Part shown: in pieces, positions 6,584 through 56,535 of the stretch
Numbering within the stretch: position 1 is the first letter of the stretch
Layout: the number at the start of each line of letters is the position of its first letter
Program-made: the position numbers and the translations under genes
Notes under the pieces: generated by a model
Seen by the model: the letters and a program-made list of their open reading frames with translations, nothing else
Told to the model about the DNA's origin: nothing
Databases searched by the model: none
Assembly (NCBI GenBank): GCA_021234155.1
Contig: JAJEKV010000083.1
Span: 186,001-250,000 of the forward strand
Length of the DNA stretch: 64,000 nucleotides
Reading direction: 5' to 3'
Source: Isoetes taiwanensis
Taxonomy: Eukaryota; Streptophyta; Lycopodiopsida; Isoetales; Isoetaceae

Positions 6584-7625
6584 TCTAGCATGCCTGCACA
6601 TATTCTAGAAGAAGTAAAATCCATAGGGAAACTATTCTCAATGCGAAGGAGCCTGTCTTATCTCGGAGATACAAAATCAGAATTAGAATTGGAAGAAACC
6701 TAATAGTGAGCTCTGAGTCTCCTGGTAGATTCATGATCTTAGGCCACTGTATTTCATGATCTTGGTTAATAAAAAGATCCTTCCATTTCTGGTTGCATTT
6801 TCCCACGAAAAATCTCATTAGATTGTTTGTCTTAGAAAGAGGAACCACAAGGCAGAGCTGATAATTCTTTATAGTGAAGAGAAGAAGCATTTTCCTACCA
6901 ATTAACTTGAAATGTGAGTTTCAGAATAGCGATTTAAATCTTTTATTGTAGGAAGAGTTCAAACAATCATATGCAATTATAAATAGTTGTTTGCTCAAGA
7001 TGATCGAGTGTTATTATCTAGATGGATGCAGGAACATAGTGAAAGTGGGTGGCAGGTTACTTAGAGACAGCATGTTGGGATTCCTCAAGATATTTGTACT
7101 GCCACATGGTCTTTTGCTGGCTTAACAACATCATCGGCTACAAATAGTCAATTGATGGAGTGCAAAGACAATTTTCGAGATCCACTCTTTTCTGATTTCA
7201 GATAGAAAGAAAAAGAATGTGACAATTTGTTGCTGTGAGAATCATTTTGATGCTGCTCCTTGCATTTCATGTGCTTGTTGTTACAGGTTAGTCTGCAACT
7301 GCTTGGGATTTTACCATAAATGCTCTGCTGTTTTTTTTTTCCTTGTTCTAATTGTCAAGAACTAACTTTATTGATGTCTTCCTTTATACTCAACTTGCAG
7401 AGCTTGATTACATAACGGGCATATGTGTCTCTCCTTGTTCCATACAACGACTCCAATGATGCAGTAGCAAACACACAAGAACAATGTAGTTAAACATACA
7501 GTACAGACCTATGGCAGAATATAGTTGCCATGCTTAGGGCTTAACAAGAGATTTACATAGACGTAAGATACAAAGATGGTCCTGTTTGCTGATCTTTGTA
7601 AAACGCATGTCGATATGGAATTCAA

Positions 7626-7729: not shown

Positions 7730-8096
7730 ACTGTAATATATATGCGTACTTTATCTGTTCTTTATCTGCTTATCTTTATTCTAATACTGACAAATCACCA
7801 TATTTTTTTTTCAGTTGTTTATTTTTTGGCACTTATATACTTACATAAACAACCTCTATAGTGTATATTTCTTGGCACTTACATACTTACATAAACAGGC
7901 TAACTGGCCCATAAAGTTTACGTATGTTTGCTTTAGTTAGGGCCCGAAGGGCCCAAATTTTTTTTTAATAGAACAATCAACACACAACTACCATTAACAT
8001 CCTTAACACAAACCATTGCATTCAACACATTTAAATTAAAATCCCCCTTAAACCCCCTTTGGTTTGGGTGCATATTCACACGGGGGGTTACGTAGA

Positions 8097-11841: not shown

Positions 11842-12749
11842 AAGTCACCCAGATTAAATAAGAATTTGAAAACAGTCGATTCTAGCAAGAAAGCCGAAAA
11901 AAACAAGGTTCAAGCATTTGAAGAACCAGGGCCAAAAAGAAGACTTATTTGTGAAGAACCCGCTGTTGTGGAAGCAAAGCATGTAAGATGTGTCAATGCA
12001 GAAGAAATTTTCCAGATTTACAGGAGGTCATGGACGAGCAGTGGGGTTCTAAAGACATTAAGGGGTTCAAAGAATCTAGCGTGAAGCCAGAGTGGGCTGA
12101 CAGCTTCTACAAGCATTATGAAATTGTTTTTGGTAAGCTAGAGGTCACCAATCGCCATGTACCTGAGTACTTTGCTCGTGCCTTTGCCCTTCAATTAACA
12201 GGTAAAAAAGTAGATTGGGATACATTTAAAGTTTTGGCCAAAGATTTGGCAAAGGGAGGAGCAAAAGAATCTGCTATCACAGAAGAAATTGGGACCTCTA
12301 AATCCACATCCAAGGTTCTTAAATTGCAGCAAGGATTTTACCCTAAGAAAGACCTTGAATTTGCAGAAACTCTATTGCAGCAGTGCCATGGACAGTTAAT
12401 TAGCAGCTCTTCCAAGGTTGAAGAACTGAAAAATCAGCAAGCAGAGAACTACATGACAACATAAATAAGATTTCAGGAAGAAAAGATGCACATGAAGAGG
12501 ACCTAGCACAGATTCAACAAGACATTGACAGTGTTCTTGATGACGCTAAGCAGAACAAGAGGGACATCAAGAATGTGCAGCAAGAGGTTGACCTTTTGAT
12601 GAGGGATCGAAGCAGGAAGGAAGAAATGTTGAAGAGAATTCAGGAGCCTTTGGAGAAAGCCATTCGGGAAACGGAGTTATGTGAAAAGAGGATTGCAGAA
12701 CTTGAGGAGGCTCATAAAGTTCAGTTTGAGTGCTGCAGATGGCTCGATG
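11842..12749 (+). pseudogene. Ulp1-like gene, central exons (coiled coil)
   Basis: Exon 11842-11982 follows the acceptor TTTGCCTCCCAG and encodes KSPRLNKNLKTVDSSKKAEK and on to VEAKH, phase 0. Exon 12024-12749 begins EVMDEQWGSKDIKGFKESS. It continues through a globular part (PEWADSFYKHYEIVFGKLEV, VPEYFARAFALQLTGKKVDW) into a long heptad-rich coiled coil (QIQQDIDSVLDDAKQNK, EEMLKRIQEPLEKAIRETEL). It ends phase 1 at GATG|GTATGC. Two blemishes are visible. The gap 11983-12023 is either a 41-nt intron or a frameshift, and a one-base shift near 12440 puts TAA after ENYMTT. The coiled coil resumes in the new frame, so the copy is probably a pseudogene. I do not recognise the N-terminal globular family. 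Confidence 0.5.
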
Positions 12750-12910
12750 GTATGCATAAGTACATGATGCATTCTACAGCGATTCTCCTTCAGCCCAAAA
12801 CAAGCTTAGTGATCTCTCCAGCTCAAGAAAAATTCATATCTGTGCATGGATGTGTGTTTTGTACTAATGGCTTTGCTAATAATGAACCTATCCTAGTCGC
12901 CCACTTTATT

Positions 12911-13413
12911 GGCTCCCTAAATTGACTAGAGGAGCCAAGAGGATTTGCTTGAGCGAATCCTCTGGATTCGCTCAAGCGAACCAGGAGGATTCACTCAAGC
13001 GAATCCTCCTGATGACGTGGTGTCCACGTCCGCTCTAGAGAGGATTCGCTTAAGCGAATCCTCTACCCTAGTTAACCAAAAGCATGTGAAAAAATCCAAC
13101 TTTAATGCACTGATTTCACATGCTTGAGAGAAACTTAAGTGAATCCTCTTGTGAGGATTCGCTTGAGTGAATCCTCACAAGCATTTATTTGTAATAAATG
13201 TCCTTGGTTCGCATGCTTGGGAGCATCCTTGGGGGGATTCACTTTTTTTTCGCTTAAGTGAATCCCCCAAAGCACGAAGCCCAATGCAGCATGCTTACAA
13301 ATTGCTTGGTGCAAATCGCGCACCTTATTTTGCACACTGGAGGATTCACATAAGCGAATCCTCGAATATGCACGTAAATCTATAGGGGCAGGAATCTTCT
13401 TTGCCCAAGATGC
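12911..13413 (+). repeat. Left TIR with palindromic repeats
   Basis: Contains about seven copies of an imperfect palindrome built on GGATTCGCTTRAGCGAATCC. One perfect 26-bp copy is at 13039-13064. The copies differ mainly in the central TTAA/TTGA and in the left half-site. Confidence 0.85.
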
Positions 13414-13943
13414 ATCTTCTTCCCCTTGCGTAGTCTCTGTCAGCTTCTGGCAATAGTAGAACGATTCGCTTAAGCGAACCGTTCTACTAGGAGGGCAAGG
13501 CCAAAGATGTTATATATAGAAGAGCTTCGGCCTGTACACATTCATATTCATTGCTCGGCTTTCAGGAAGTGCCTTTCAAGAACACAAAGGTGCTCGCTCT
13601 CCCTCCCCTCCCTCCTCCCTCCCCTCCCCCCATTGATCTCCTTTCTCACGGTAAGTTGCATCGACCCCTTGCTTTTTCGCTATTGTAGGGGTTTTTTTGT
13701 AAATATCTCCCTTTCTTGAGTTGGGGCTCCCTTTAGTTCTCGTGTCGAAGAGCATCATAGCATCGTGTTCCATTACGTCAATGTATTTAATGTACTCGTT
13801 GTCTTGTAGGTTCACTCAAACAGGCAAGTGTCCGAACACTAGTACGTTAAAGTATCAGGTTCATGCTTCTTCCATTTATTTTACTCATGAACTCGCCCAT
13901 TGTGCATTAGTTTTTATTTGCCTTCCAAATAGAGTGCAAGACC

Positions 13944-14419
13944 ATGGCAGAGGCAGACATCGATGATTCAATTAGTGAGATTTCAGATGCTTGTTTCCGT
14001 TGCGGACTGTGAAACCACATGGAAACAATGCATCATCTGCTGCTGCACGAATATACATACGCACGGAACATACAGAACATGACCTTTTCACAAATGCAGA
14101 GGACTGGTCAATGCCCGTGCATCCTAAACTACTAGGGGCTGCTGCACAAGAGCTTCGGAGTATCGGGATGACTCGTGCAGTGTGGGACTTTGCAAGAGCA
14201 CGAGGACTAGAAATACGTATGACAGTAAGTCCAATTGAGCGCATCATTTACCGCTTCATGATGGCACAGGAGGATGTTTGGCAACTAGCATATCGGCAGA
14301 GGATTCTCATCCATGCCTCTTCTCCTTGGGCACTACAATCAGGCGGAAATGGTGAGGTCAAGGTATGTGCCATGCCAGTGCCAGCCATGCCAATGCTCAC
14401 AATGTCATCAAAGACCTGA
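13944..14419 (+). CDS. Unknown gene inside the TIR transposon, plus strand
   Basis: An ATG at 13944 (ACCATGGCAGAGG) opens MAEADIDDSISEISDACFRC. A frame change near 14010 then leads into PHGNNASSAAARIYIRTEHT, EDWSMPVHPKLLGAAAQELR and IERIIYRFMMAQEDVWQLAY. The good reading ends at a splice-donor-like GTCAAG|GTATGT at 14362, so a downstream exon may be missing or removed. I recognise no domain. The codon content and Ala/Arg composition look like genuine coding. It converges with the minus-strand gene at 14441, with 22 bp between their stops. It could be a transposase relic or captured host sequence. Confidence 0.4.
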
Positions 14420-14440
14420 CGCCCCCTGGGAGGGTCAACC

Positions 14441-15606
14441 CTATCTCCGCGGAGACGACGTATAGAAGGAGGGGTGGCCAATTATAGGTCTGATGGAGTC
14501 GGATCCACCCCCGGGAGACCAGATGCGAATGGGGGGAGGAGACTCTGGATCTATCGGAGTTGCACCATTCATCTGAGGCCTAGATTCAGATATTACTATC
14601 TCTTCGGATTGTAACCTAGTGTTCCTACTGCTCGCACCAAATTCGGCCATGTCGGCATGCAGTCTATCCTGCTCTGCTGCAAAAGAGGGATCAGATGGAG
14701 TGGGGATCATAGTAGTCCTTGAAGCTGAACGTGAAGACGGGTCTGGACTCTCCTCCCAGTGAGAACCCCGTATTCGGATGAGCTCAGCTAGTAACCCCTG
14801 CTCTGTTGGCATATGGCCTGCCAATCTCTGCGCAATGGCCCAATCATTGAGAAGCTGATGTGCTTCCCAATCATCGGGCCCAACCATATCTGTGGTACCT
14901 AACCGCACTCTGATGCGTCCTTCATGAAATGGTTGCAGCCTTTGGCGCTCCAGCCTGTGTTGGGTGCTGACATCGTGCAACAAAGCATCTGGCCCCTCTG
15001 GAAAGACTTCCAATGCCGCCTCGGGTGTCAGGATATGTTGCAAACGCATTATAGTCGCGCCTTGCCTCGCAGCATCTCTGTGTCTGGCTGAGGCCGCCAA
15101 CATGCGGGCGGCCATCTGTGGATCTTGTCGTCGTCGCGTTGCCCTCTCGCGCTCAGCTGTGATTCTGGCTGTATTTCTCGGTGCCTGGGCTCGAGGACCG
15201 GAGTGCCTGTCAACGGGCCACCAGTGATCTCGATGGTGGCTCTGGTGGTGTCCCCAAGCCCCATCTCGTGTGAGACCAGGGAATCCAGGATCCCAGCGCA
15301 CTCTGTCAACAAAGTGTGTGCACCCCTCTGCAGTGCAGATCCATCTCTATGCAACCGAAGGGGCACGACTAGTTTCCACTTGAATCACCCTTCTGACGAG
15401 GCACCAAATGCCGTGGTACTCCCTGCGATAAAACAAGTTGGATAAATTAGTGCAAACAACGTATTGTCGTGCAAAAGATAAGTGGTTTTGGGCATACCAT
15501 TCTACGATGCTTCCAATGCGAGCTGGATGCTGGGCCCCGCTTTCTAAGTTAAAAGGCAACGGTCGCTCGTCCATGTGTACAACCGCCACTGGCTCCGAAG
15601 AAGACA
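14441..15606 (-). CDS. Unknown Arg-rich gene inside the TIR transposon, minus strand
   Basis: Exon 1 (15606-15498) encodes MSSSEPVAVVHMDERPLPFN and on to RIGSIVE, and ends at TG|GTATGC. An intron of 75 nt closes with TATCGCAG. Exon 2 starts at 15422 with EYHGIWCLVRRVIQVE. After one or two frame changes (15350-15300) a long open frame (15301-14441, 286 codons) follows. It includes RITAERERATRRRQ, AARMLAASARHRDAARQG, DDWEAHQLLNDWAIAQRLAG and a Ser/Pro-rich tail. The composition is GC-richer than the surroundings. I recognise no family. It may be the element's own protein or a transduplicated host gene. Confidence 0.4.
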
Positions 15607-16238
15607 TTCGCAACAAACTGCAACCACAAACAGGAAAAAAATTCTAGAAAAAAAAGCCCAAGAAACACATCATTTTGTACTATAACACATTACATAGTAA
15701 TATTATGCGCATCTGCCACCCAAATTGCAAGCATTAAATTGCAAGGAAATAAAAAAACGTTAGCCTAGTTTCTGTTGTAGATATATGAAAAACTTATCAA
15801 CTAAAATGTCAAATGGATGTGACAAGCAATGTATTGCAAGGAATCCCAAAACATAGCTTAATTTATATGTTAGGATGTATAGAATGAAGGTTATTCTACA
15901 TTTACTTGATCACTTCACGGCCATATCAAAATCTTTAGATTGCTACATCGATAAACATAATAGCTTTATGATATTAACTTGGTTATTCTGCTGCCAAGGA
16001 TTCGCTTGAGCAAATCCTAAAAGATCATAGCACAATCGAAAAATAGTGAGCAAAGAAAACTATTTCATAGAACTTACTCCAAAATCCATGTGCAAGAAGA
16101 AAAAAACTTACTCTAGATCTTTCTTCGTCTCGCTCTTCAAATATATCATCACCAAGGATTCACATGGGTTTTAAATAAAGAAGCCAAGGATTCGCTTAAG
16201 CGAATCCTTAAAGCCTCAAAAAAATCTATGCTAAATCT

Positions 16239-16766
16239 ATGCATATTTGGGGCAGAGATGATTCCTGACCCATGTTGATTTACGTGCATATTGGAGGATT
16301 CACATAAGTGAATCCTCCATGTGCAAAAAGTACATGCACGATTTGCACCAAGCAAATTGCACCAAGCAACTTGCAAGCATGCTGCATTGGGCTTCGTGCT
16401 TTGGGGGATTCACTTAAGCGAATCCCCCTTTGAATCCCCCCCAAGGATGCTCCCAAGCATGCGAAGCAAGGATATTTATTACAAATAAATGCTTGTGAGG
16501 ATTCACTCAAGCGAATCCTCACAAGAGGATTAACTTAAGTGAATCCTCTCAAGCATGCGAAATCAGTGCATTAAATGCTGGATTTTTTCACATGCTTTTG
16601 GTTAACTAGGGTAGAGGATTCGCTGAAGCGAATCCTCTCTAGAGCGGACGTGGACGCCGCGTCATCAGGAGGATTTGCTTGAGTGAATCCTCCTGATTCG
16701 CTTCAGCGAATCCAGAGGATTCGCTCAAGCGAATCCTCTTGGCTCCTCTAGTCAATCTAGGGAGCC
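16239..16766 (-). repeat. Right TIR with palindromic repeats
   Basis: Inverted copy of 12911-13413. It carries the same series of GGATTCGCTTRAGCGAATCC palindromes, for example at 16616-16640 and 16715-16740. An additional perfect 24-bp copy lies just inside the arm at 16186-16209, and further copies lie at about 15996 and 13457. Confidence 0.85.
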
Positions 16767-16989
16767 GATAGCAACATCGTATCCTAGTTGCTCCATGTGT
16801 TCTGTTTCTCATATTCTATTTCTGCTGGACTATCCTGCCCAAAAGCATGCAAATACTGCAATGTAGAATCCATTTACATGTGCATTGCTGCACTTAAGGT
16901 TTTGCTACAGCATGTAGGAGTGTACTGGTTATTTATACTTATAGTTCCATAGCTTGCATGTCATATCTAACATATATATAATATTCTTA

Positions 16990-17370
16990 TGTTTGTCCTC
17001 TTGAATCCGACCGTTGATCCGAGATCCTACGGCTCACGTGGCTTTGGGACGTATCGTGCAGCCCAAATGGCTTGGGAGTTTGTGTATAGACTATATGTAA
17101 GCGATCCTACGGTCCAGGTTGATTCGATCCTGATCGTCGTTCCGAGATCCTACGGCTCACGTTGGTTTGAGACACATCCTACGGTGCACATGGCTTGAGA
17201 ATTATATGTAATCGATCTAGCGGCCCAGGTTGCTCTTGATCCTGATCGTCGATCCGAGATCCTACGGCTCAGGTGGCTTTGGGAATTATATGTAATAAAT
17301 CCTACGGCTCATATTGCTTTTATATGGTGAGATCTTGATCGGTGATCGAGTCTAAGATCCTAAGGCTCAT
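16990..17370 (+). repeat. Degenerate tandem repeat of GATCCTACGGCTCA
   Basis: The motif GATCCTACGGYYCA recurs about seven times, interleaved with CCTGATCGTCGATCCGAG and TTATATGTAATCGATC. Unit length varies from roughly 60 to 120 bp. Open frames across it are repeat products. Confidence 0.65.
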
Positions 17371-17415
17371 GTTGAATGCTCGTCCCTTAAGGAAAAGCTT
17401 TTAAATTTTTTTATG

Positions 17416-17475
17416 TTATTGGGGGGATTCGGACCCTGGCACCCCCCACTCTAACCACTAGACCAAGCATTAATT
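17416..17475 (-). mobile_element. tRNA-related SINE head
   Basis: On the minus strand, box A-like TGGTCTAGTGG (17465-17455) is followed about 20 nt later by box B-like GGTCCGAATCC (17435-17425). These are internal RNA polymerase III promoter elements of tRNA genes and tRNA-derived SINEs. No cloverleaf with a convincing anticodon stem and acceptor stem is preserved, so I call a SINE remnant rather than a tRNA gene. Confidence 0.5.
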
Positions 17476-17499
17476 GTATGAATAATTTATGTTTCAAAT

Positions 17500-18500
17500 A
17501 TACTTAAGGGGAATATTCTAATCAAGATAAAATCGAATATAACATTCTAGATTGTTCAAGAATGGGAATCTTCGGAAATGTAAGGGAATAGGGAAATACT
17601 TCCAAAAAGTTCTAGGATGTTTTGAAAGTTTCAGAATGTTCCAGAAAGTTCTAGAAATTTCTAGAATGTAAGGGAATCGAGGAGAATTAAAGGGAATATA
17701 AGGAAATCTCATAAATTGTAAGAGAATGTAGGAAAATATTTACAAGTCTAACGGAATCGCTTAAAATCTAGTTGAATCTAAGGGGATCTTCATAATATCT
17801 AAGGGAATCTAAGAAAATCTTGATGAAATCTTAGAGTTTTTTTTAAGATTTTGCAAAGAGCCACAATAGAATGTTCTAAAATGTTTCATAATAAAGGTGT
17901 ACAATATAAATGTTGAAAAAAAAATGTTCTAGAAGCTCAGGGCAAGCGTCTCAGTCTAAAAATAGAAAAGTGTTTTAGAAATGTTGCACAGATCCAAAAT
18001 AGATTATTTTGGAAGGTTCTAAATGCTCATGGGTAAGCGACTCAATCAAAATAGAAAATTCTAAGAGAATCTAGGGGAATCTTCATGAATGCTAAATATA
18101 GTACATAGAATGTTGAAGAATATAGAGGAATCACAAGAGAATCTCAGTAGAATCGTTGGTTATCTAGAGCACGACAGGGCCTTGCACCGTAAGAATATGC
18201 TAAAACTGGAACAATGTGCCGTAGGACGCATTAAATTTACGCATATATATATATGTATTTCTTACATACATGTTGTATATTCACACTGTAGGGTCATAGA
18301 TGTAGAACATTAATATATACAATTAGGAGTTGTGTACTGAGTTTTGTGGCAGAATATATAGAGGTCTGTTATGTAATAGAATTGTCTCGGTGTGTATATG
18401 TGCATACATTGGAGCATATTTTATATACATTACATGTACATTCCATCTAGATAAATAGCTGTTTACATGTATATGTACTCATAGTACTTCAATGTAGATC
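17500..18500. other. AT-rich intronic region with GGAATCT-type degenerate repeats
   Basis: Short motifs such as GAATCTAAGGGAATC and AGAATGTTCTAGAA recur irregularly to about 18160. No coding evidence. It lies between the TIR transposon and the 3' exons of the Ulp1-like gene, so it is probably intronic. Confidence 0.4.
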
Positions 18501-52999: not shown

Positions 53000-55790
53000 T
53001 GCGATGGAGAACTTAGGCCGTCGATTAGGGCTAGGGTTTCATTCACGACATACAATATAACTTTATAATATATATAGGAGGATATAGGTTTGGACAGAAC
53101 TATCAACATTAAAATGCAGGGGGTGGAATATTTAGGGGTGGAATGTTTTGGCATTCTTTGGACCTCCTTTACCACGCATTGATCCTTTCTTCCATGGCAG
53201 CTGGGCCTCCTGCATTAAGCATACATAATATGAGATCTCTAAATCCACTCATGCCTAGCTAGACAACAACAATGCAATTCCTTAATAAATCGTAGAAGAA
53301 AAAAGAAATCAAATAGTGCAAATAGACAATGGTACCCATCACAATCTGCACCTAAGAAGCACGATTTGAGTATTGCATTCTCTTAGACATAAAATGACAG
53401 ATCTGAAAAGCACTCCAACTTAGCTACACAACACCTTATCTAAGCAATTATGCATGCCCACTAATCTAAATGCCAGCACCTACTGCACTCTCTTCTGCAA
53501 TTCCATATGCAAGCTATCAACCTATTGTCACTCTACCCAACACCCAAAACATACACACAAATCTATCTGTAGCACCTATTACATGCAGATGCTTAGAACT
53601 TCCCTTATCAATTAAATATCACTTTCAGTACTTTCCTGTTATAGACAAAAAGAGAAGCATTTCAAACCTGGTAGAAATCGCTCATGTAATGAATCCAGTT
53701 GTGTTTACTCCATGCTCCATTGCTCAGTTCTGGATTTTGAAGTTCCATATACTGCATTTAGCTCCACATACCAGCATTTAGCATGAGGCTTAGCCAAGTA
53801 GATACCAGATGCAAAACTATAACTCTGGTAAGGAAAAGAGCGGGTCTACACTATCCAAATAAGGATGGAACAATTCACATAAGCCCAGCATCTGTGGAAA
53901 AATAGATAATATTTTAGGCAGAAGTTACAGATGTCTTTTAATGCAACAGGCAACCATTTTTTTTTCTTGCCTACGGAATCAAGCAGAATCCGTTGCTCCA
54001 CGATACCAATGGCAGGGAATAGGCAATCAGAAACTAACAAAGGTTCGTATCTGTATAAAATCACCAGAATCACAAGCTCTGCACCCTCAATATTCTTGCC
54101 ACAGGGAAATATCATTTCGGCCTAGCTAGAACGCTTGCAGGGTGAGGTTTGGACCATATGTCAGCTGATTAGCACTGCAAAAGCACTCTTGCTTCCTCTC
54201 ATGCCAAGAGTCATACTTCCATATTGCATTTATACCAGATAGAATCTCCAGAATCCAAAAGGTTACCTAGAGGTTCTGGTAAATAAGTCCTTTGCAAATT
54301 TGTACTGGTGTGGATGTTGTTTGTTTGCAAAAATGGTGGAGTCGTTATTGAGCTCGTTATTGAGCTCCTGTGGGGCATAACGATGGCAAATTCTGCAACC
54401 TTGGCATTTTGAGTAATGCTCCATTCCTACGTATGCATACGATATTTAGGGGTTATTATGCCTCACTCCCACTGCTGAGACAATCTGCATTGAAACCATC
54501 TTCACCTCCTAAACTCACATTAATGAATAGAAGCCAAATACGAATTGCTACAAACAAAATTGAATCAAGATCAACGATGAATTTGAAACCCTACACAGCA
54601 AAACATACAGGAAGCAGTAGCGTTGTAACTTCTAGGCCCATTAGAAATGATGGCTCGTTGCAGAAAAGGGTTTGCCCACCAATGAAGCTTCTCCAGCATG
54701 GTAATAGGTGCAATTCCAGATAGCGATTCAATACCTGTCTGTTCTAGGATGAAGAACAAAAAAAGGTTAGAAAGAGAACTCTGGAGAATACAGTGGTCGT
54801 ACCCTAATGGAAAAAATCACCATAGAATTCGTAACCTTCCAATGGGTAGCAAACAAATTTAACCGGATTTGAGCTATAAAGGCCTGCCAGTCTCCTTGGT
54901 GGACTGCGTTGCAGAATAACCTGCATACTTCTAAGGCCTCATTGAGAGGAAGAACAAACACCTTACAGCTTTGAAAAATAGAAGGCAATAGAGCAATCTG
55001 ACACAGATCAAAGATTGGAACGGCAATAGAAAATGCATTTTGGCAAGGTCTAAACTCCTTGTTCATGCCAACGCACTTATCCCTAATCAACAAAACAAAT
55101 CCCAGTAGAAGGAATCATCACCAAAAGCCAGAATGGGTCCGGTAGAAAGGAAAAATATGGATCATGTGTCCCCTTCAAGCTGCTCTCCAAAGGCTATTAT
55201 TGGAATGTATGATTTATCGAAAGCCAGAATGGATCTGGTAGAAAGGAAAAATATGGTGCAAGGCTGCCGCTGTGGCTATCCGGAACACCTAAAGAGCACA
55301 CCCATCAAATTTCAAATGGATAATGTGTCGCTGGTGTGCCTGCCTGCTGTAACAGATGAGCCCTCGGAACCCTAATCGAACCCAAATCGAGATAGCCAGC
55401 CAACCACATCAAATCTCAACCATTAAATGAAATGATCAAATCTCAGCCGTTAGATCTAGGGCTGGGTCCAACACTTACGCAATAACATTATAATATATAG
55501 GATTGGGGCATGTGATGCTAGTTGGAAACCTCAACTTGCATATTTGGTTGTACTCTCTCTGCAAGGTTTCGATGGATTGCATGCAGTTGCAGCAATGTAG
55601 GACTTTTTGGTACTAATATCAGTAACAGAACTTGTTCCTTCACCTTCATCATGAGAGATTATGTCCCATAGCCCTTCACTTTCTGGAATTTCATTTATTC
55701 TTTTATTCCAAACTTGAAAATCTGACACACACGCTTCCCTCCCGGGTAAAATATTGGCTCCCTAACTAAACATTCGAAACCATGCATATA
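53000..55790. other. Unassigned region, no supported gene
   Basis: CTAGGGTTTCAT near 53030 and GGAACCCTAATCG near 55367 are further telo-box-like words. The stretches CATTATAATATATAGGA near 55480 and ACTTTATAATATATATAGGA near 53060 are similar and may mark ends of one repeat family. A partial duplication of CCAGAATGGRTCYGGTAGAA lies at about 55128 and 55226. Open frames show no domains. Confidence 0.35.
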
Positions 55791-55794
55791 TCGA

Positions 55795-55977
55795 GTTTGA
55801 TATACGGCGTATATCGAGTTCGATATACGTATATCCGGCAGGGTGCCGAAAATGACGTATAAAAAAGTGTATAAAATTGATATACATTAGTATATCGAGT
55901 TAGATATACAATAGTATATCAAACTCGATATACTATAGTATATCTAACTCGATATACTACTGTATATCAATTTTTAT
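55795..55977. repeat. AT-rich palindromic repeat of TATATCGAGTTNGATATA
   Basis: The 18-bp near-palindrome recurs about six times. The core forms a 48-bp near-perfect inverted repeat, 55873-55920 against 55927-55975, with a 6-nt centre. It resembles a MITE or a fragile cruciform-prone site. Confidence 0.85.
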
Positions 55978-56535
55978 AGCAATAATAGCCCTGTTCTTGT
56001 CATTATCCGGTCTGTAAGCATTTTCGTCCCCAAGAATCTATCTCTGATGTGTTACTATGATGTTTTTCGGCTCCAAAAATCCTTTATAAATTGTTGCTTC
56101 TCTTGAAATCAGCTCGTTTCATTCATCTTTTTGGCCGCATTTTGAATTTTAGCTCACAGTCTGTTGGAATAGGGCATCGTACCCATGAAATCCGGCTTCA
56201 TTTTGAATTTGGCAGAGTATTTGTAACTGGAACCTGCATAAGTAGCGCATTTTCCTCAGATTTTCTAATCAGATTAAGTGTGATTTAATATACCAAAGTT
56301 CTTTGCAAAAATCGGCAGCAACAGAGTTGTTGGCTTGGATTTTGTGTTTATAAGCTATCCATCAAGGTTTTTCTCATTTGCTAAGTGTATTAGCTTTAAA
56401 GCTGTGCTAGAATGGCAGGGAAAACGTGGTTATTCTTCATGATTTGTCTTGCTTTGTTTCTAGCGAATGGAGAAGGCAGCATAACATGCGAAGCCACCGA
56501 CAGATAGGCCCTGTTGGGTTTCAAAGCTGGCATTC

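Follow-up and report, generated by a model that had tools for sequence, protein, structure and literature searches.

Arrays of symmetric sites with family-specific letters in Mutator-like elements of the lycophyte Isoetes taiwanensis

The window analysed here is a stretch of 64,000 nucleotides from Isoetes taiwanensis (contig C1093, positions 186001–250000), and was compared with the genome of 1,658,258,908 bases in 1110 contigs. The Mutator-like element (MULE) that it contains derives from a two-gene transposon by internal deletion, is non-autonomous, and is bounded by terminal inverted repeats (TIRs) rich in palindromic sites. Related MULE families carry arrays of one architecture, in which 8-bp symmetric arms flank a 4-bp spacer. 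What is unexpected is that related families in one genome keep this geometry, often with a 23-bp phasing, while their letters differ by symmetric substitutions. The sites are probably docking sites for a dimeric (C2-symmetric) DNA-binding protein encoded by the element, which would act on its ends and promoters, and the pattern suggests a protein-docking code that is peculiar to each family and labels its ends and promoters.

RESULTS AND DISCUSSION

Palindromic sites in the window element

Seventeen matches to the 20-bp palindrome GGATTCGCTTAAGCGAATCC with no more than three mismatches were found, all within 12941–16736, and the rest of the window has none. The largest count in 100 dinucleotide shuffles was 0. 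A first-pass annotation had described a perfect palindrome which, together with close variants, is repeated at least 14 times in and near TIRs of about 0.5 kb. The repetition is confirmed, but "perfect" holds for two 20-bp sites: among 18 sites with up to four mismatches to a degenerate motif, only those at 13042 and 16188 are perfect, and the remainder deviate from symmetry at the centre or in an arm. The sites and the neighbouring promoter-like sequence are as follows, with the strand given where there is one.

12941–13006: terminal array of three palindromic sites with a 23-bp period (12941, 12964, 12987); the same triplet is present in L013 and L018
13042–13061: perfect palindrome GGATTCGCTTAAGCGAATCC; the symmetry holds over 26 bp (13039–13064)
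13155–13174: palindromic site; the outer arms are symmetric for 7 bp further
13342–13361: palindromic site (motif match)
13454–13489: palindrome of 36 bp in which one pair is mismatched, TAGTAGAACG...CGTTCTACTA, and which ends 21 nt before TATATATAG; the arrangement recurs in nine more family copies
13511–13519, + strand: TATA-like sequence TATATATAG before gene 1, a putative promoter
15998–16017: palindromic site inside the right arm (motif match)
16188–16207: perfect palindrome inside the right arm
16269–16779, − strand: right TIR, with eight palindromic sites (16296, 16406, 16499, 16527, 16616, 16671, 16694, 16717)

Copies and relatives elsewhere in the genome are designated by L numbers. 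A search of the genome with the left arm gave at least 133 matches (40 of 244 candidates scored). The exact 20-mer GGATTCGCTTAAGCGAATCC is found at 29 places, and the reversed pattern, looked for as an exact 20-mer only, at none. Twenty-five of these 29 belong to the window element, to matches to the family TIR or to retrieved stretches with further sites, although the end match is weak in L057 and L060, and L014 was counted without an end check. Three more have a match to the family TIR or to a family gene no more than about 1.1 kb away, and the last is at C1034:25476671. For the exact 20-mer, therefore, the palindrome does not occur mostly outside the family. The same figures bear on the idea that an independent palindromic repeat inserted itself into an ordinary transposon. 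The number of sites does vary between copies, as nested insertion would predict, but with 25 of 29 exact copies in family elements or ends and three near them, and with sister families carrying sites of other letters in these noncoding flanks, we consider it extremely improbable.

Sister families with the same geometry

The consensus arm of the window's family, P1, is GGATTCGC, and it too has a complementary partner arm. The arms of the other types are given below, each with its complementary partner arm where the spacer is shown.

P2, GGGTTCGC-N4-GCGAACCC: L015, L018, L020, L021, L022
P3, AAATTCGC-TTAA-GCGAATTT: L023
P4, AAAATCGC-TTAA-GCGATTTT: L024, L025
P5, GTATATCG-AGTT-CGATATAC: L026
P6, AGGGTTTC-CATG-GAAACCCT: L040:1952–2112 and L044:2019–2173, each lying upstream of a transposase match that is more distant
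P7, GAGGTTTC: L046, L051 and L053, with a single good site apiece (thin support)
P8, GGAATCGC: two sites in L035 (thin support)

At the level of the consensus, arm positions that differ between families change jointly with their partner positions. The catalytic domains of P1 and P2 transposases are 83–91% identical for four of six copies and 68–76% for the other two, and those of P3 and P4 are 96% identical, so that the letters of the palindrome can change over short distances.

Expected site counts came from Markov simulations, five for the first relatives and 40 for another 30 stretches of 2.4 kb, each upstream of a transposase match, with a low-complexity filter in both. Ten of the 30 stretches exceed the largest of the 40 simulations. 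Eight of them carry known types (P5 in L027, L033 and L043; P2 in L030, L031 and L045; P3 in L039; P1 in L042), and the other two, L040 and L044, carry the P6 array.

The window also holds a P5 fragment at 55743–55957, with five sites of the form GTATATCG-AGTT-CGATATAC starting between 55786 and 55938 and with CGGGTAAAATATTGGCTCCCTA as an end of its own. At 55979 a sequence weakly resembles a right end (three mismatches), and its flank is unlike the left flank.

Placement and spacing of the sites

Sites with more than three mismatches were dropped for the spacing, 40-mer table, flank and coding counts, and those with more than four mismatches in the 16 arm positions for the test of double changes. 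Repeated 20-mers or 40-mers were collapsed for the double-change and constraint analyses, and similar flanks for the flank test.

In nine elements, none of 126 sites falls within the 32,091 bp that were matched as coding, and all 126 are in the remaining 37,320 bp (the coding bounds are approximate for L018, L021 and L023–L025). Neighbouring sites are commonly 23 bp apart, with 25 such pairs in P1, 14 in P2 (plus five at 22 bp), two in P3 and nine in P5, and 24 pairs in P1 are 28 bp apart; these counts include many inherited copies of one TIR. The 23-bp spacing was not found in P4 (mixed, with 21 bp twice) or P6 (43 bp twice). Since 12 bp separate the half-sites of one palindrome, a 23-bp period places successive half-sites alternately 12 and 11 bp apart, which would be close to one helical turn.

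The 36-bp palindrome ends 21 nt before the TATA-like sequence in all 10 distinct window-family copies that were matched, with a variant of the TATA-like sequence in L011 and L013; in L014 the arrangement stands on the side of gene 2. One further match, the eleventh (L023, six mismatches), has no TATA-like sequence. Every left-arm site of the window element is upstream of the TATA-like sequence at 13511, but in the relatives a few sites are downstream (L013:2422, L014:3643). In L013 a TATA-like sequence is also found inside a 36-bp near-palindrome (AGGCCGAAG...TATA...CTTCGGCCT), at 1732–1767 and 7982–8017, near both ends.

Letters and structure

The central pair is symmetric less often than column composition predicts (0.41 vs 0.57 in P1, 0.21 vs 0.44 in P2, 0.05 vs 0.50 in P5). 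Many sites in these families therefore have a weak polarity, and the first-pass description of sites without direction does not hold fully. In P5 the asymmetric centres occur in both orientations, with seven distinct sites having AGTT and seven AACT. One-sided arm changes are common within families. Complementary double changes are in modest excess over shuffling in P1 (28 vs 17.9) and P5 (4 vs 2.3), and there is no excess in P2 (5 vs 5.2), P3 (0 vs 0.15), P4 (0 vs 0), P6 (0 vs 2.6) or P7 (0 vs 4.7).

Several results bear on the reading of the sites as protein docking sites, most of them against it. Constraint in P1 is uneven, with T4 and T5 of the left arm kept in 94 each of 96 distinct 20-mers, G1 in 74, and position 7 variable (G/A 54/34), and this fits recognition of letters, but the figures treat the sites as independent and ignore their shared ancestry. 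Symmetry in P1 extends into flank positions 11–16, where 81 of 150 cells are paired against 50.2 expected (sd 5.3; reached in 0 of 5000 permutations), using different letters at different sites; this is more than a plausible half-site, and a dimer site does not need it. Twenty of the 30 upstream stretches stay within the simulations, the array being absent, decayed or outside the stretch, and the count in L017 is not enriched (6 vs 4.2 expected in five simulations). Structure models of the two candidate DNA-binding regions were poor, with a mean pLDDT of 45.1 for the N-terminal segment of gene 2 and 40.2 for the N-terminal part of gene 1. Finally, the protein comparisons are not uniform. The open part of the gene 2 finger is 76% identical over 54 residues between L023 (P3) and L025 (P4); the transposase segments of L024, which is also P4, diverge from those of L023 as well (51–96%); and the P2 copies share one palindrome although their gene 2 identity to L015 drops to 36–54%.

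The flank symmetry keeps alive, for the window family, an explanation in which structure matters more than letters. The palindromes would then form hairpins or cruciforms, either in DNA, with a role in synapsis, nicking or replication, or in read-through RNA that feeds small-RNA silencing. The P1 flanks, symmetric far beyond the 20-mer with site-specific letters, agree with this, as do the perfect or near-perfect palindromes of 34–36 bp and the 4-nt centre, which suits a loop. However, there is no flank symmetry in P3, P4 or P5 (884, 3279 and 2590 of 5000 permutations reach the value) and it is marginal in P2 (234 of 5000), with P6 and P7 having too few sites for the test. Complementary double changes within families are weak or absent, which lowers this reading, and the position of the left-arm sites of the window upstream of the TATA-like sequence argues against hairpins in that promoter's own transcript, but the few downstream sites of relatives limit this argument. 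We regard a structural role as unlikely overall.

It is very unlikely that the palindromes have no function and arose as a side effect, with quasi-palindromes perfected by template switching in replication or by gene conversion and then spread through TIR homogenisation. Such an origin would account for the site-specific extended arms in P1 and for the many one-sided changes that are tolerated. It would not be expected to leave coding DNA free of sites, to produce uneven constraint and a fixed distance to the TATA-like sequence, or to give families with different letters a common architecture and 23-bp spacing. The window family does carry an extra structural signal, which either template-switch perfection or selection for hairpins would explain.

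Candidates for the protein that reads the sites

If the sites do dock a dimeric protein, this may be either the transposase or the product of the second gene. The arrays at both ends would gather the protein for synapsis of the ends; from the sites close to promoters it would control the inward-facing promoters that lie near both ends. The window copy has sites and no working protein, and could presumably be moved only in trans. The first-pass idea of a dimeric transposase, to which symmetric sites would be suited, is still a good hypothesis. The contrast between L023 and L025, in which the transposase segments are 92–96% identical (one 69%) and gene 2 is 42–45% identical, leans towards gene 2 as the candidate reader; several gene 2 copies are frameshifted, which makes these percentages rough. 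A general rule, by which gene 2 would diverge in step with the palindrome, was considered and is not upheld consistently in the P2 copies or in the comparisons of L023, L024 and L025.

Should binding be confirmed, the families would provide a natural series of protein–DNA recognition switches, testable with few proteins and probes, and would show which of the two proteins, transposase or companion, governs the recognition of ends and the control of promoters in MULEs with two genes. To our knowledge, this question has been unsettled since MuDR.

A related possibility is anti-silencing of the VANC type, in which the gene 2 product reads the palindrome and removes methylation from its own copies, and rapid change of the palindrome reflects an arms race. 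The noncoding arrays of a family-specific motif are in keeping with this, as is the second gene, which is convergent, changes fast and has a C-x4-C...HH segment, and the VANC21 motifs are described as likewise lying in noncoding repeats (PMC5735166, PMC10398659). On the other hand, those motifs are described as having one orientation (PMC5735166) while the sites here are symmetric, gene 2 divergence does not follow the palindrome consistently, and the likeness to VANC is one of description. We consider it unlikely. We are equally doubtful of a more specific proposal, that the palindrome is a family-specific password: a fast-evolving second protein, with a zinc-finger-like N-terminus and possibly a protease-like C-terminus, would read the array of its own lineage and free its promoters and ends from host silencing, and the two would change together to escape silencing. 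If true, a lycophyte would have a counterpart of the VANC system that is independent of it and uses symmetric sites.

Relation to known elements

Subterminal repeats of MULEs are described as tandem or same-orientation motifs in the portions of the reports that were available (PMC5225508, PMC5735166, PMC3169594). In titles and the beginnings of abstracts on palindromic or composite MULE ends and on lycophyte MULEs, mostly from outside the subscription literature, no arrays of symmetric sites that differ in letters from family to family are described. A close likeness in gene content is to the MuDR and MUDRAVI groups of MULEs with an antisense second open reading frame (PMC6446971), which share the 9-bp target-site duplication (TSD), long TIRs, an antisense or convergent second gene and, probably, a SWIM-type transposase. 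A plant mobile domain is listed there for most of those groups, whereas the gene 2 segments here have no Pfam match at cutoff, and arrays of symmetric sites make up the present TIRs. In Aedes aegypti, Muta1 (PMC5225508) is also a MULE with an 8–9-bp TSD and a composite TIR, in which a short terminal motif is an imperfect palindrome and a subterminal motif is repeated; it differs in that only the 10-bp terminal motif is described as palindromic and the 12-bp subterminal repeats are tandem, and the text available mentions no second gene. The Mutator/Foldback element Tm1 (PMC3169594) resembles the present elements in its 9-bp TSD, internally redundant TIRs and different motifs at the extreme ends (here CGCCCACTTTATTGG vs CGGTGCTGCTATCGG), but its repeats are 13–15-bp tandem repeats and not palindromes. 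VANDAL elements with VANC (PMC5735166, PMC10398659) likewise have short family-specific motifs arrayed in noncoding DNA, and extra genes. Their YAGTATTAY motifs are in one orientation and the available text mentions no palindromic TIRs, whereas the arms here are symmetric.

Ends of the element

The element spans 12898–16779 (3882 bp) between identical 9-bp flanks, TATCCTAGT. The first-pass span of 12911–16766 was thus too short, the true termini being 13 bp further out on each side.

12889–12897: TSD, left copy, TATCCTAGT, identical to 16780–16788
16780–16788: TSD, right copy, TATCCTAGT, matching the left copy
12898–12917, + strand: transposase-side terminus CGCCCACTTTATTGGCTCCC, found with 0–1 mismatches in L009–L012, L058, L059, L061 and L062
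16760–16779, − strand: gene-2-side terminus, reverse complement CGATGTTGCTATCGGCTCCC, from the end sequence and TSD comparison
12898–13388, + strand: left TIR, from an inverted-repeat search and end comparison

The inverted arms are about 0.5 kb long (12907–13388 and 16269–16770, blocks I1–I4 and I8) with a complementarity of 79–97%. Both ends recur in longer copies, as CGCCCACTTTATTGGCTCCC on the transposase side and as CGGTGCTGCTATCGGCTCCC opposite; the ends are unlike each other, and the element therefore has a polarity despite its symmetric arms. With the same ends and 9-bp TSDs shared by other copies, this is one transposon with TIRs of about 0.5 kb rich in symmetric sites, as first proposed, and its arms are not two unrelated insertions.

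MULEs have TSDs of 8–11 bp, most commonly 9 bp. A perfect 9-bp TSD was found in six of 11 elements tried (the window element, L009, L010, L013, L020 and L026); in L013, L020 and L026 the pair was chosen among several identical 9-mers near approximate ends as the one that abuts the family end sequence. L011 has seven of nine letters matching. No clean TSD pair was found in L018+L019, L024 or L025, and in L012 one end was not found. Inverted terminal repeats are present in the window element, L009–L013 and L018; there are none of at least 40 nt in L015 or L017, and none of at least 45 nt in L021. Like Foldback-type elements, these have long TIRs with internal repeats, the 20-bp sites spaced by 23 and 28 bp, which here are palindromic and not direct repeats. 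An Rfam scan of 12500–17500 at gathering thresholds gave no match, and a tRNA scan found none.

Three diverged 72-bp direct repeats (GATCCGAGATCCTACGGCTCA...) lie directly to the right of the element, at 17009–17315. In L009 a 54% match to a MULE transposase (6711–6872) starts at the right edge of the element and extends outside it, which may mean that this copy landed in or next to another MULE gene.

Genes and their remnants

The longer copies L009 (6.5 kb) and L013 (7.5 kb) each have two convergent genes. Gene 1 encodes a MULE-type transposase: the ZSWIM RNase H-like domain PF21056 scores 30.6 bits in L023 and 27.8 in L025 against a cutoff of 27.2, and is below cutoff in L026. The MULE domain PF10551 is below cutoff in six relatives, including L018, where E is 3e-5. 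In the window's own family (L009) the transposase match is only sub-threshold (PF10551, E 0.015), and its catalytic domain is 57–60% identical to those of the PF21056-positive families. The SWIM zinc-finger domain PF04434, which in MULEs follows the catalytic domain, scores 17.8 bits in L023 against a cutoff of 19.6 and has no match in L013 or L018, in whose transposases a CxC...CxH motif can be read.

Gene 2 has an N-terminal C-x4-C followed about 23 residues on by HH, which may resemble WRKY/GCM-type fingers; none of the scanned segments of gene 2 reaches the cutoff of a Pfam family. Its C-terminus has the motif order HW...FDN...Q.DNN.CG, possibly like that of Ulp1 cysteine proteases, a suggestion at motif level that also brings to mind Kaonashi and other ULP-carrying MULEs. 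No Pfam or PDB sequence match supports this likeness: the exon-joined C-terminal segment matched 0 Pfam families at E ≤ 1 and 0 PDB sequences at E ≤ 5. PDB sequence profiles gave nothing for gene 1 or the C-terminus of gene 2, and one non-credible match (E 0.69) for the N-terminus of gene 2. Both genes, in convergent orientation, were matched in all four more distant relatives (L023–L026), gene 2 at about 30–42% and over a short length in three.

The window copy is a deletion derivative in which both internal genes are truncated remnants.

13911–14308, + strand: gene 1 remnant, N-terminal MULE transposase pieces of 26 aa (96%) and 107 aa (93%), by tblastn
14293–15436, − strand: convergent gene 2 remnant, N-terminal C-x4-C...HH segment and the following part, with one in-frame stop in the segment

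In the tblastn comparison neither the RNase H/DDE nor the SWIM segments are matched by the gene 1 remnant, and the C-terminal segments are not matched by the gene 2 remnant; the four internal open reading frames of the window copy have no Pfam match. The first-pass annotation had assigned these genes to no known family; they can be recognised as a MULE transposase and its companion only because longer copies are available. A long CT/GA microsatellite is found before gene 1 at L009:1142–1482, and in its place the window has a C/T-rich tract near 13595–13630.

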